Below, piece after piece: positions 8,377 through 36,178 of a DNA stretch of 64,000 nucleotides. Both the position numbers and the translations under genes were made by a program. Where the stretch lies: positions 1-64,000 of the forward strand of contig JAFTPT010000018.1 of the NCBI GenBank assembly GCA_017463155.1, in the 5' to 3' direction. Each line of letters opens with the position of its first letter. Positions within the stretch are counted from its first letter, which is position 1. The stretch comes from Blautia sp. (GTDB lineage Bacteria > Bacillota > Clostridia > Lachnospirales > Lachnospiraceae). The notes under the pieces are model-generated. The model saw only the letters and a program-made list of their open reading frames with translations. It was not told the origin of the DNA and ran no database searches.

Positions 8377-9921
8377 ATGAAGAAAAATCATTCCGCCGCG
8401 GCGCGCCTGGCCGCATTCATCAGTGCAGCCCTGCTCATCCCCGCCGCGTGTATCTGTACGGTTCCGGCCGAGGAGGAAGGCATGCTCTCCCATTCCGGAG
8501 ACAGCGGCTCTATCTTTTCCTCGAGTGCGGTGGCCGCCCCTGAGGAGGAAGCCGGCGACGCGCTTCTGACCTCAGCGACCAGTCTGGAATCCATGCTGAA
8601 CGGCCATATCGTCTGTCTGGATCCCATTGCGCAGGGGGAATCCCTCGGGCTCGCCATCGACGTCGCGTCCGCCACACGGGATCTGCTCGAAAAGCGTGGA
8701 TATCAGGTCGTCCTGACCCAGGATGATCCCTCCGTCGCCATCAGCGACGAGGAACGTGCCGGGCTTGCCGACGCCGGTGAGTCGGAGATCTTCGTAAAGA
8801 TCGACGCCGGGCAGAATGAAGATCCTTCTGTCTCCGGTGCCGGCGCTGTCTGCCCGTCCAAGGACAACGCCGATGTCCCTCAGCTTTCCGAGGATTCGAA
8901 CAGGCTCGCCGAGTCGCTGCTCGAGGCTTACTGTGCGGACACCGGTCTTACGGATCTTGGCGTCCGTACAGATGACACGATCGCCGGCATCAACCTGAGT
9001 GTCATGCCGGTCACGATTCTGGAGATTGGGACCATGACAAATGAAAACGACAGGAATCAGATGGAAAATGTAGAATTTCGCGATATGATGACGATGGGGA
9101 TCGTCGAAGGCGTTGACGCTTATTTCGGGATCGATACAAGCGGAACGGACATCACCGCTTCCTTGTCCGGATCCGGAAGCAACGAGAGGCTTGATGCCCT
9201 GATGGCAGAGCTGGCCGGCAGGCTTCCGCAGAATAATGGCCAGTGGTCTGTATTCGTCGGCGACCTGTCCTCCGGCGCTTCTTCCTCCATCGGCAGTCAG
9301 CCGATGCTGGCGGCCAGCCTGATCAAGCTGTATATCATGGGTGCCGTCTATGAGAATTACGATGTGCTTTCCCAGACCTACGGGGCGGGCACGCTGGACA
9401 GTCTTCTGTCCCCGATGATCACGGTCAGTGACAACGACGCGGCCAACACCCTGACCTCCTACCTCGGCGGCGGGGATTCTTCCGCCGGTATGGCAGCCGT
9501 CACCGGCTACGCCCAGGCGCATGGCTTCTTTGATTCATCTATGGGGCGTCTTCTGCTCCACAGCAATGAATTCGGCGACAATTACACGTCCGTCAATGAC
9601 TGCGGACAGCTGCTGATGCAGATCTACAACAACAGTACGGGTAAGGACACCAGCGTACCGCTTGCCGGTGCCGACGCCATGTTCCAGCTTCTGAAGGGTC
9701 AGACCCGCAGGCACAAGATCCCTTCGCAGATGCCCTCCGATGTGGGCGTCGCCAACAAGACCGGCGAGCTCGACAACGTGGAAAACGACGCCGCGATCAT
9801 CTACAATGTACCGACCGGCAACGACCTGGTGATCGTCTTTATGTCACAGAATGTAGCGCCCGGAAACGCACAGGCCACGATTGCAGAACTCAGCCGCTTC
9901 ATCTACGACTATCTAATTTAA
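8377..9921 (+). CDS. Secreted fusion: degenerate amidase_3 domain + serine beta-lactamase-like domain
   Basis: 514 residues from the ATG at 8377 (upstream in-frame codons lack a ribosome binding site; GAAAGAGG precedes this ATG). An N-terminal signal/anchor covers about residues 9-29. Residues ~75-253 resemble N-acetylmuramoyl-L-alanine amidase type 3, but the zinc motif DPGHGG reads DPIAQGE and the second His position reads VKIDAGQ, while LEIGTMTN is kept; catalysis by this domain is unlikely. Residues ~265-514 carry the penicillin-interacting motifs: S314LIK, S351DN and K461TG. The C-terminal domain is of the class A beta-lactamase-like type and could be a beta-lactamase, a carboxypeptidase or an inactive cell-wall binder. 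A strong hairpin follows the stop codon. Confidence 0.72.
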   Translation: MKKNHSAAARLAAFISAALLIPAACICTVPAEEEGMLSHSGDSGSIFSSSAVAAPEEEAGDALLTSATSLESMLNGHIVCLDPIAQGESLGLAIDVASATRDLLEKRGYQVVLTQDDPSVAISDEERAGLADAGESEIFVKIDAGQNEDPSVSGAGAVCPSKDNADVPQLSEDSNRLAESLLEAYCADTGLTDLGVRTDDTIAGINLSVMPVTILEIGTMTNENDRNQMENVEFRDMMTMGIVEGVDAYFGIDTSGTDITASLSGSGSNERLDALMAELAGRLPQNNGQWSVFVGDLSSGASSSIGSQPMLAASLIKLYIMGAVYENYDVLSQTYGAGTLDSLLSPMITVSDNDAANTLTSYLGGGDSSAGMAAVTGYAQAHGFFDSSMGRLLLHSNEFGDNYTSVNDCGQLLMQIYNNSTGKDTSVPLAGADAMFQLLKGQTRRHKIPSQMPSDVGVANKTGELDNVENDAAIIYNVPTGNDLVIVFMSQNVAPGNAQATIAELSRFIYDYLI

Positions 9922-9980
9922 CGTATTAAATGGGGGCTCGCTTGCATACCGCTTGGAGGGGTATGCAAGCGAGCCCCTTA
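9922..9980. repeat. Post-stop repeat copy 1 / bidirectional terminator hairpin
   Basis: A perfect 18-bp inverted repeat (9933-9950 with 9960-9977, 9-base loop) lies between two convergent genes. Its left part, including GGGGGCTCGCTTGCAT, recurs right after the LysR stop codon (35226-35266, minus strand) and in diverged form after asrC (about 45829-45857). The T run is short on both sides, so termination is likely but not certain. Confidence 0.7.
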
Positions 9981-9982
9981 TA

Positions 9983-10759
9983 TCACATCCCGAGCTTCTT
10001 CATGTCATCCAGTGCTTTCTTTGCTTCTTTTTCTTCGTTCTGTTCCGGGTCCGGGATCGTTTCCCCCGGTAGTTCACCGGCGTTCTCCTCCCCTTCCTCG
10101 ATGAAGTTCCCGTAGGCGTCCACCTTCGGCAGGTATTTGGCAAAATCTTTGATGAGAAGCGACGCTTCCAGCATCACGATGGCCCCAAAGCCGCACATAG
10201 CCCAGATGAACACATAGAGCGGGCGCATCTTCTCGTCAATGTAGGTCACCGCGACGGGAATCACATTCAGTGCCACGATCAGGATCATCTTGAAGGGATT
10301 CTTCGCGGCAAAAAAGATGCCGTTCCGCATGAGGTTCGGCAGCGTATCGGCAAAAGCCGCGATCACCGGGATCGTATAGGACGCAAGGATAACGAGGACG
10401 AACGCCACCGCATACACGGCATACTTAAAGATCGTCAGTCCGCCCCCCTGGGTGTTCAGAAAACGGATGTCCACGATGCAGAAGAACGCCCCGGCCATCA
10501 TAAGGAGCCCGAAAACAAGGCCCTGCTTCCAGTTATTGCGGAATCCGGTCCAGAACTCCTTGAACGGATTCAGAACGCCGTCCCCCCGCAGCACCTTGAA
10601 CATGACATGGAAAAGCGCCACCAGCGCTGGTCCCAGCGTGACGACCGGCAATGAAAACAGGATGAACATGAGGTTCGCCCCCATGATGATCCCGCAGCGG
10701 GTCATCAGCTGTCCGAAGGTGCTGTCATTGTCAAGGATTCCTCTGATGAATCTGCCCAT
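9983..10759 (-). CDS. YesL-like (DUF624) membrane protein
   Basis: 258 residues with about five hydrophobic segments (for example around residues 23-46, 80-95 and 115-135) and an acidic C-terminal tail rich in Glu and Lys. The pattern and the start MGRFIRGILDNDSTFGQL are those of the YesL/DUF624 family, often found in Firmicute carbohydrate ABC transporter operons; the molecular role is unknown. It is the last gene of the minus-strand group running from the binding protein at 15012. The ribosome binding site is AGAGGGG. Confidence 0.8.
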   Translation of the reverse strand: MGRFIRGILDNDSTFGQLMTRCGIIMGANLMFILFSLPVVTLGPALVALFHVMFKVLRGDGVLNPFKEFWTGFRNNWKQGLVFGLLMMAGAFFCIVDIRFLNTQGGGLTIFKYAVYAVAFVLVILASYTIPVIAAFADTLPNLMRNGIFFAAKNPFKMILIVALNVIPVAVTYIDEKMRPLYVFIWAMCGFGAIVMLEASLLIKDFAKYLPKVDAYGNFIEEGEENAGELPGETIPDPEQNEEKEAKKALDDMKKLGM

Positions 10760-34163: not shown

Positions 34164-34247
34164 AGGGTATTCCTCTCCTGTTCTAAAGATTCCCTGCCAC
34201 CCGAAAGCAGCCGGTCCGTTTCCAGAAACATTATAGTACAGAATCGT

Positions 34248-34277
34248 TTGAAACAAAAGACCAAATTCTAATATAAT
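34248..34277 (+). promoter_or_regulatory. Strong plus-strand promoter facing a gene-free region
   Basis: TTGAAA (34248-34253), 18-bp spacer, perfect TATAAT (34272-34277). Transcription would start near 34284 and run into sequence without an ORF but with extensive complementarity, so its product is probably a noncoding RNA. Confidence 0.7.
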
Positions 34278-34284
34278 AGAATTC

Positions 34285-34560
34285 GCTCACGGATTAAAGT
34301 GACAGAGAGACGAACGGACGCGGCCGGAATGCGAAGATCTCTCTGCCCGCAAGGCCCCGGGCAACGGCTCGGTAAGCTAAGCACCAACTCCAACTATAAA
34401 AACGCTCAGCAGAGGCTTCGCGTTTTAGTTTCCGTAGGTGCTGGATCTTACCTCCCCTAAATGCGCCCTCAAAAGCCCTGCATGGCAGAGAGAATCTTCG
34501 CTCTCCCGGCCGCTGTCTCGTCCTGACTCCACGAAAGCTTAATCGGTTCGCTCATGAGGT
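34285..34560 (+). ncRNA. Candidate structured noncoding RNA, class not identified
   Basis: The sequence folds on itself in nested blocks. The outer pairs are GATTAAAG with CTTAATC, GACGA with TCGTC, GCGGCCGG with CCGGCCGC, and GCGAAGAT-CTCTGCC (34337-34353) with its near-complement (34484-34501). Inside are GCCCG/CGGGC, GGTAAG/CTTACC, AGCACC/GGTGCT and a CTATAAAAACGC/GCGTTTTAG stem. A strong promoter precedes it. I see no tmRNA tag, SRP domain IV, RNase P core or T-box motif. The raiA class of Clostridia is one possibility; I cannot confirm it. Confidence 0.55.
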
Positions 34561-34808
34561 GTCGCAGCTCGAGACCAAGGCTATCTGGCAAGTGGAACGC
34601 TGCGCGTTCCAGGACGCGCACGGCAGGATGGGACAGAACGGGGGGACGGTTCTTCGTTCCGCTCTTCGCATAAGGAGCGGGAGTGGAGTCAAGGGACAGC
34701 ACGCTGGACGCGACAGCGTCCGGGCAGCCCTTGACGGAACGACACGGATGACCCTGTTTGCTGAAAGCAGCCAGATGCTGCTTTCCTGCCTCCCCGACGA
34801 GGGGCGGG

Positions 34809-34836
34809 TCTGGGCAGCGCCCAGATATTTTCTTTT
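34809..34836 (+). terminator. Plus-strand terminator of candidate ncRNA transcript
   Basis: TCTGGGC (34809-34815), loop AGC, GCCCAGA (34819-34825), then TATTTTCTTTT. It is the first plus-strand terminator after the 34248 promoter, so the full transcript would be about 550 nt. Confidence 0.6.
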
Positions 34837-34853
34837 AAATAGCCGCATAGAGC

Positions 34854-34906
34854 CACGGGGACAGGTTCCTCGACTCACTGTGTGAGTCGAGGAACCTGTC
34901 CCCGTG
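34854..34906. repeat. Perfect 25-bp-arm hairpin with GGGGACAGGTTCC core
   Basis: Arms 34854-34878 and 34882-34906 with a 3-base loop. The core GGGGACAGGTTCC resembles GGGGACGGTTCC in the hairpin after asrC (45862-45938) and a single copy at 34642-34652. Such cores are typical of REP-type repeats mobilised by Y1/RAYT transposases in Firmicutes; no such transposase is in this window. Confidence 0.7.
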
Positions 34907-35012
34907 ACTCTTCTATCGTTTGCATTTTGGAACGCGCAGCGTTCCACTTGCCAGATAGCCCTGGCCGACAGCTGAGATTCTCAGGCGAGCGCCGCCTCCC
35001 GCGTTGGGGGGC

Positions 35013-35266
35013 GGATGCAGAGATTTGCTGGCTGTGTAGGGCCACTTCGCAGTCGACGCCCGGGATCGCGAGCATAATTTCATACGCGCAGGCCGCCTTG
35101 GATCTCATAATGCTGCACGATCCACAATACCGGCGTTTGATCCAAGGCTTGGTCGGAGCGTATGATAATTGATGGCGCAGCGATCCCAAGGAGACAAGCG
35201 TGGCCCGGCAGCCACATATCTCGCATCCCTTCCAAGCGGCATGCAAGCGAGCCCCCATTTAATACC
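35013..35266 (-). repeat. Long nested hairpin ending in post-stop repeat copy 2
   Basis: Six complementary blocks nest in order: GGATGC-GAGAT (35013-35024/35216-35228), TGGCTG (35029-35034/35209-35214), GGGCCAC (35039-35045/35200-35206), GGGATCGC (35062-35069/35180-35187), CATACGC (35081-35087/35158-35164) and GCCTTGGATC (35095-35104/35139-35148). The segment 35226-35266, directly after the LysR stop on the minus strand, matches the repeat at 9922-9961 almost base for base. It could be a 3' UTR structure or a MITE. Confidence 0.65.
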
Positions 35267-36178
35267 TTAAATTTGGATGAAGGATGTAACTCTTTCGAGG
35301 AATGCTTCTGCTTCGGGCCGGAGCTGTTGGTTGTCGGGCCGTAGGCAGCCGAACGAGATCTGTTTTTCGAAGCCTTCGATCTTTGTCATAGAGAAGCGGT
35401 ATTTGCCGTAGGCGCTTTTGTGCCAGTAGCTTCCGATGTTGCAGAGTGCTGTCGTCTGCAGCATCCGGATCATCATGTGGTCGCTGTTGGTCCGGATCAC
35501 CTTGTGCAGTGAGCATTTTCCCTTCCGGAAGGCCGGTGCCTCGACGAGCAGGTCCTCCACCGAAAAGAAGTCGTCCTCCAGCTGGATGCATTCGCATTGG
35601 TCCAGCTCCTCCGGCGTCACCGTCTCCCGCCCGTAAAAGCGGCTGTTCTCCGAGCAGTGCAGGACCAGATCCGTTTCAAGAAGCGGCTGGTACACCAGAT
35701 GTCTTTTTTCGGCCAGGCGGGTAAATGCGCCCAGCTTGTATAGCGGTACGAACAGAAGTCCCAGATCGTACCTCTCTTCGGCCAGAAGCCGCATCATCTC
35801 CTCGCCGTTGCACTCCGTGTAGCGGAGTGACATCCCCGCTTCTTCCCGTTCATGAAAAAAATCCCCTGCCAGAAATGCCAGGCTGCTGCTCGGATGCGAG
35901 GCGATCCGCAGGCAGCTTTCGCCTGCTTCGTGGCAGGTCTCCAGGATCATGTCGGCGTTCCTCAGGACATTCTCGGCATAAAACCGGATATGCTCCCCGG
36001 CCTCCGTGAGGCGTATGCCCGTGGAGAGCCGCTCGACCAGCGCGGTCCCCACCTCCTGCTCAAGCTGTTTGATCACCAGGCTCACGTGGGGCTGTGTTGT
36101 ATAGAGCTCCTCGGCGGCCTTCGAAAAAGAACCAAGCCTTGCGCTTGTCAGAAAATACTGCAGCTGTTTCAGATCCAT
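35267..36178 (-). CDS. LysR family transcriptional regulator
   Basis: 303 residues from the ATG at 36178 (MDLKQLQYFL), 7 bases after GGAGGG; the ATG three bases upstream is too close to that site. The N-terminal winged helix-turn-helix (GSFSKAAEELYTTQPHVSLV) is typical, followed by an effector-binding domain of normal size. It is divergent from the EamA transporter gene, the usual LysR-target layout. A T-N11-A palindrome lies between them. The ligand is unknown. Confidence 0.92.
   Translation of the reverse strand: MDLKQLQYFLTSARLGSFSKAAEELYTTQPHVSLVIKQLEQEVGTALVERLSTGIRLTEAGEHIRFYAENVLRNADMILETCHEAGESCLRIASHPSSSLAFLAGDFFHEREEAGMSLRYTECNGEEMMRLLAEERYDLGLLFVPLYKLGAFTRLAEKRHLVYQPLLETDLVLHCSENSRFYGRETVTPEELDQCECIQLEDDFFSVEDLLVEAPAFRKGKCSLHKVIRTNSDHMMIRMLQTTALCNIGSYWHKSAYGKYRFSMTKIEGFEKQISFGCLRPDNQQLRPEAEAFLERVTSFIQI

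Follow-up and report, generated by a model that had tools for sequence, protein, structure and literature searches.

We propose that positions 34316-34517 of the window (the whole 64,000-nt stretch of DNA analysed here) belong, as one copy, to a family of palindromes that are mobile but non-autonomous and are probably recognised as folded single-stranded DNA; the probability of this reading is estimated at about 0.65. The mobile unit is a large imperfect palindrome of approximately 200 bp; at the only insertion site with clean edges it measures 219 bp, short flanks included. This part rests on the lack of a coding match, on the patchy, dispersed copies outside long ORFs, and on presence or absence in related species. 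The family is apparently uncatalogued: it is absent from Rfam 15, and no description was found in literature titles and the starts of abstracts, although it may stand unnamed in supplementary motif lists.

The element lies in a gene-free stretch (34164-35266) between upp, encoding uracil phosphoribosyltransferase, and a lysR-type gene (Pfam), both on the minus strand. The stretch is downstream of lysR and directly upstream of the upp start. As the initial annotation had stated, it contains no credible ORF: the five largest (77-131 aa) matched no Pfam family at E<=0.1, and a coding stretch was therefore ruled out. Elsewhere in the 64-kb window, the minus strand at 33347-33479 matches RF00557 with 76.4 bits; this is the leader of ribosomal protein L10, a regulator that is well known and ordinary.

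Layered long-range stems without a known-RNA match had been reported here, and each of the named stems is indeed present. These are the outermost stem GATTAAAG/CTTAATC (34292-34299/34538-34544), the outer stems GCGGCCGG/CCGGCCGC (34320-34327/34506-34513) and GCGAAGAT/ATCTTCGC (34331-34338/34494-34501), the inner stems GGTAAG/CTTACC (34371-34376/34447-34452) and AGCACC/GGTGCT (34380-34385/34437-34442), and the hairpin stem AAAACGC/GCGTTTT (34399-34405/34420-34426). All six nest in one long hairpin. The predicted fold of 34284-34560 has an energy of -112.9 kcal/mol (z -4.9), and none of 200 shuffled sequences is as stable. From tag to tag (34316-34517, given on the plus strand) the element consists of GGAC at 34316-34319, a long outer stem, the core, the other arm of the outer stem, and TGTC at 34514-34517. 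These limits are based on a survey of terminal tags and on single-strand DNA folds of both strands, the minus strand being the one that folds better. The conserved core (34356-34476, plus strand) is defined by a covariance model match of 119 bits and by covariation.

No Rfam family matched 34164-35266 at the gathering score (both strands, gathering and permissive searches); the six sub-threshold matches all overlap a separate hairpin at 34849-34911. When 12 of 29 related loci were searched against Rfam 15 at E<=0.1, just two unrelated weak matches were obtained, both below gathering. A known Rfam 15 family, including the previously suggested raiA, is thus ruled out at Rfam thresholds for the window and the 12 loci, and it is the other suggestion, a new structured fold, that holds: the fold is large, evolved and absent from Rfam. 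The strong promoter reported at 34248-34277 does exist as a pattern (11/12), but only its -10 half, TATAAT, is inside the repeated element, at its edge, whereas the -35 box TTGAAA is outside. Among ten other copies from the same genome, nine reach 7 to 9 of 12, their -35 boxes having 2 to 4 of 6, and only L027 has a comparable promoter (10/12, 19-base spacer). The terminator claimed at 34809-34836 is at chance level, with 2 such structures found versus 1.7 expected; the terminator-like hairpin concerned occupies 34808-34826 on the plus strand.

The gene-free kilobase is a mosaic of palindromic repeats, not one RNA. The whole compound region, delimited on the plus strand by blastn against own-genome copies, is 34261-35266: similarity starts at 34261-34266 and stops at 35264-35270 in several copies, and the middle (34560-34930) is variable among them. 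In its own species the giant hairpin has an extra 5' arm (34261-34315, plus strand), recognised from the own-genome alignment and the promoter comparison, and an extra 3' arm (CTTAATC...TTCGCTCA, 34518-34556, plus strand) partly complementary to it. The 5' arm holds the AT-rich inverted repeat ATTCTA...TAGAAT (34265-34282), and the TATAAT that had been taken for a -10 box is part of this repeat. Further downstream on the plus strand is an outer inverted repeat, whose 61-nt left arm (34562-34622) is 82% complementary to its right arm (34917-34977). Inside it are a small REP/TIR-type motif GGGACGGTTCT (34643-34653, plus strand) and a near-perfect, REP/TIR-like 30-bp hairpin of the GGGGACAGGTTCC type (34849-34911, plus strand), reading GGGGACAG. 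Of the repeat's 15 loci in its own genome, 11 contain the GGGACGGTTCT motif, and a single occurrence was seen in the 3.3-kb Y1 (IS200-like) transposase locus of the same genome. In five own-genome copies (L023, L025, L026, L027, L029) an extra hairpin interrupts the core at one and the same internal loop, carrying a GGGACGGTTCT-type motif in all of these except L023.

A second large palindrome, the 3' domain, occupies 35006-35229 on the plus strand (seven copies, including that of the window, were aligned and given a consensus fold) and is common to at least six other own-genome copies. Among the seven copies double changes were observed at 19 of 77 predicted pairs, with 25 G-U and 11 A-C oppositions; the signal that distinguishes DNA from RNA is less clear here than for the giant hairpin. 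The right end of the mosaic (35220-35270) is matched by a hairpin on the minus strand at 9918-9985, GGCTCGCTTGCATACC...GGTATGCAAGCGAGCC followed by CCCATTTAATAC, which stands alone right behind a gene.

The element is a multicopy repeat. In its own genome, the first 320 nt gave 23 blastn matches, a number of which are fragments of a single copy, and the covariance model of the core gave 13 copies. Eight other carrier genomes contain 39, 49, 29, 21, 15, 14, 10 and 8 copies, with 150 candidates scored per genome. The distribution is patchy and almost confined to Lachnospiraceae. In that family the covariance model detected the element in 34 of 397 genomes, the own genome included, with at most 9 candidates scored per genome and stricter filters. 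The order-level scan found it in 8 of 392 genomes, seven from Lachnospiraceae and one weak match elsewhere (E 8.6e-5), and the phylum-level scan in 2 of 398, both Lachnospiraceae. By blastn, 5 of 145 relatives, own genome included, had a match. A pattern scan of 84,980 species genomes yielded at least 113 stretches with the element, whose record titles name Lachnospiraceae, Blautia, Roseburia, Oliverpabstia, Hominisplanchenecus, or MAGs called Eubacterium, Clostridia, Clostridiales or Eubacteriales; these loci were collected by an exact pattern, which imposes their apical loops. At the sensitivities applied, no copies were found in viral contigs by the pattern scan, and blastn found no match in phages or plasmids, so that a phage or plasmid origin was set aside. 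A variant subfamily (L191, L196, L203, L218, L223; genus of Oliverpabstia), found by the covariance model, has a different, fully palindromic apex of the GGGTCAGC.GACCC type, with flanking motifs otherwise similar to the main class.

Covariation, which the initial annotation had named as a check, is very strong among 106 distinct copies (100 loci, 110 matches). In this set 94.3% of cells are paired, and 30 of 33 pairs have double changes. The double-change cells number 505, compared to 118.7 (sd 11.8) in shuffled alignments and 23-64 with the partners slid; these figures are biased upward by the relatedness of the copies and by the fitting of the alignment to the model. The fold is real, large and evolved.

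None of 115 copies with adequate flanks lies inside an ORF longer than 200 aa. Around the 110 copies with genes on both sides the four gene orientations split 38, 30, 22 and 20, and thus divergent gene pairs are not avoided. Inverted and tandem clusters and head-to-head pairs occur among the copies of the carrier genomes; in one contig (G511:C45, 10335-11321) four copies, three tandem and one inverted, are found within 1 kb. For eight sites that carry the element in one genome, the counterparts were looked for in five relatives. At the site of L069, the loci L227 and L232 of two close relatives lack the 219-bp unit and have closely similar flanks (564 versus 345 nt), and no target duplication was seen at this sole clean insertion site. 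In two further relatives the same site measures 356 and 407 nt versus 564, with no element core in the alignment. At the other sites the element is missing in some relatives, and the sequences are too diverged to place its edges.

The ends were surveyed in 113 flanked copies, with GAC imposed at the paired base and at most two stem mismatches. This yielded 55 distinct tagged stems, the other 58 copies having no such stem or being duplicates. GAC is preceded by G in 42 of the 55, giving a GGAC tag in which only the first base is free of the search, and the 3' arm is followed by T (45) and G (42). On the minus strand the terminal tag is GTCC, often after a paired C, which is close to CGTC. The 481 ORFs within 2.5 kb of the copies at 113 loci were clustered. 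Since the largest cluster spans 9 of the 113 loci, a partner gene beside the copies was rejected, and no transposase or recombinase linked to the copies was found among these clustered neighbours. A tyrosine recombinase-like ORF noticed by eye near L045 was not observed again. Of the 39 copies in G220, a near-complete genome, 24 point in the direction of replication, with the terminus taken at the halfway point, which is no clear bias; in its contig C1 the 39 copies split 28 versus 11 between the strands without a clear relation to replication direction.

Functional RNA helices tolerate G-U pairs. Conversely, A-C mismatches have been used as a sign of the wrong strand, as described in the excerpted part of PMC6429828. 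For the alignment of the main class, 160 core matches had been collected by a motif with two substitutions allowed per half, so that conservation inside the motif is partly imposed. Filtering left 133 distinct copies with enough flank, 86 with the main-class pattern and 53 non-redundant ones, of which 48 were aligned; L054, one L062 copy, L074, L086 and L140 were dropped because they had insertions or were truncated or divergent. In the 43 pairs that both strands predict, 54 G-U and 55 A-C were counted among 2,054 cells. For helices predicted on one strand the first count was 45 G-U and 64 A-C of 3,402; the helices predicted on plus alone have 102 and 58 of 2,230, those predicted on minus alone 129 and 54 of 2,150, and the union of these two sets 102 and 132 of 2,326. 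In the control, the acceptor, anticodon and T stems of 77 distinct tRNAs (ARAGORN, 30 loci, six carriers) contain 88 G-U and only 5 A-C of 1,309. The prevalence of G-U far above A-C expected of functional RNA is thus missing from the shared helices, and even the best case is 129 versus 54. The one-strand G-U excess is mild and far below the tRNA ratio, yet not nil.

The two strands are not equivalent. The minus strand is predicted to be more stable in 87 of 98 copies with RNA parameters and in 89 of 98 with DNA parameters; the window's copy folded as DNA has -60.8 kcal/mol on minus versus -52.7 on plus. Near-invariant wobble-type positions occur on each strand; in plus-strand letters they are A-C at columns 32/138 (48 of 48) and T-G at columns 48/116 (46 of 48). 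On the minus strand, inspection of the main class by eye shows internal loops GA/GA and GNA/GNA, partly imposed by the motif. Such loops are stable sheared-pair motifs, in DNA and RNA alike. These observations are read as strand-specific recognition of folded DNA, although a minus-strand RNA would be just as compatible with the better minus fold. The relevant fold is probably not that of the plus strand, and a plus-strand RNA gene appears unlikely from the sequences compared. The initial picture of a plus-strand RNA at a single locus, driven by a strong promoter, is not supported: the element is dispersed and multicopy, its minus strand folds better, and its shared helices have no G-U excess. 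If the present reading is correct, common gut bacteria harbour a giant, intricate kind of palindromic repeat whose matching enzyme is to be found. The count of G-U versus A-C in covarying helices with a tRNA control would be a simple aid for telling folded DNA from RNA; covariation alone would file such folded DNA as an RNA family.

The proposed mechanism is as follows. When a replication fork or repair exposes single-stranded DNA, the minus strand may fold into the hairpin. A candidate enzyme acting in trans would then recognise the loops and tags and move the element without target duplication, by analogy with TnpA-REP enzymes and integron integrases acting on folded single strands. Small REP/TIR-type hairpins and the second large palindrome may have accumulated around the element in the same intergenic space, which would account for the 1.1 kb without genes that separates lysR from upp.

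Other explanations have to be weighed against this one. A standalone, dispersed family of structured non-coding RNAs, with a transcript that could come from the minus strand, would account for the complex fold, the conserved unpaired bases and the very strong covariation. The preference for the minus strand (compare the tRNAs, where the sense strand folds better in 61 of 77), the G-U excess of the minus-predicted helices and the near-invariant wobble-type positions on each strand also agree with it. Against it stand shared helices that lack the G-U excess of tRNAs, a comparable promoter in just one of ten other own copies, inconsistent neighbours and orientation, and presence or absence at orthologous sites; we regard this explanation as unlikely. 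A role in cis for upp or lysR, as regulatory element or terminator, would fit the position adjoining the upp start and the lysR end, but is highly improbable, as other copies border unrelated genes in every orientation. One more possibility is that the arms are complementary by mutation, template switching copying arm to arm and correcting G-U and A-C alike. Indeed, in the outer stems of the 97 of 133 copies left after removal of similar arms, 3,589 Watson-Crick positions were counted along with few G-U (124) or A-C (113), besides 291 other mismatches and 245 gap positions (the count includes alignment ends beyond the true stem). Orthologous copies also differ in part by completed double changes, of which L049/L134 has three, L095/L118 one and L101/L135 none. 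On the other hand, the same pairs have 3, 3 and 2 one-sided changes, a total of 8 versus 4 doubles, and the mismatched internal loops CTAA/GGAT and AACTNC, which are outside the search pattern, persist across genera where they should have been corrected away. This explanation, too, is rather improbable.

A mobile palindrome folded as single-stranded DNA admits, as a special case, a CGTC-type REP of giant size that a TnpA-REP/RAYT (Y1) enzyme mobilises in trans. The minus-strand tag GTCC resembles the CGTC tag described in the excerpt of PMC3733652, the copies form head-to-head pairs, and a Y1 gene whose locus includes a REP-type motif is present in the own genome. However, the Y1 family (PF01797) was found in 6 of 9 carrier genomes and not in the other three, whose assemblies are 92-99% complete and have gaps that could hide a gene; RAYT as the mover was set aside on this ground. 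Nor did any of ten Y1 loci match the large hairpin, the only match being 16 nt at 34825-34840 (E 0.006). The element is also about ten times the length of described REPs and does not avoid divergent gene pairs, and the special case is doubtful. It is possible, if tentative, that the folded single strand represents a new class of mobile elements: ornate structures of approximately 200 nt whose conserved loops would be recognised by an undiscovered Lachnospiraceae recombinase, with arms free in sequence and kept complementary.

Several known systems resemble the preferred reading in part. Like the CGTC REPs of PMC3733652 (as excerpted), the element is multicopy, intergenic, palindromic and non-coding, with head-to-head pairs; its tag, in which GAC was imposed by the search, may resemble theirs. 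According to the same excerpt, this superfamily has no known dedicated transposase and is listed in Proteobacteria, Chlorobi, Bacteroidetes, Spirochaetes and Thermotogae. However, its members are 20-40 bp, compared to 202 nt, tags included, for the copy in the window, and, unlike them so far as the excerpt describes them, our element has ornate internal loops, occurs in Lachnospiraceae and does not avoid divergent gene pairs. Because of its size and of the carriers in which no Y1 gene was found, it is not filed as a REP. The TIRYT genes, a Y1 subclass, are associated with inverted repeats of consensus GGGG[AT][CG]A[CG] (part of PMC6006769); by eye it is the small hairpin at 34849-34911 that fits this consensus, not the giant one. 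MITEs such as ERIC, RUP and NEMIS are likewise 70-300 bp, non-coding, intergenic, palindromic and, as proposed for the element, moved in trans (excerpt of PMC3733652), and the precise insertion polymorphism of 219 bp at L069 and the lack of coding capacity agree with them. In contrast to MITEs, the element has no target duplication at its single clean site, is palindromic over its whole length with internal loops, and no parent insertion sequence was found for it. With attC sites, compared by hairpin style alone and as partly described in the source, it shares a variable complementary stem, conserved unpaired bases and one favoured strand; it is much longer, and no gene cassettes or linked integrase were seen. 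TnpA-REP enzymes bind folded single strands in a strand-specific manner via the tag, loops and bulges (excerpt of PMC8266576). By analogy, the element may be called REP-like or attC-like in its working only in the sense of a folded single strand presumably recognised by an enzyme. Finally, MRSC-65-2, as described in part of PMC11109978, also combines a long stem with strong covariation; its copies number dozens per genome and have no consistent orientation. It is set apart by its description, as it occurs in diverse phyla and has a UYCCGG repeat, whereas our element was detected almost wholly in a single family. For candidates of the MRSC type, the authors remark in the same text that it may be the DNA form that counts.
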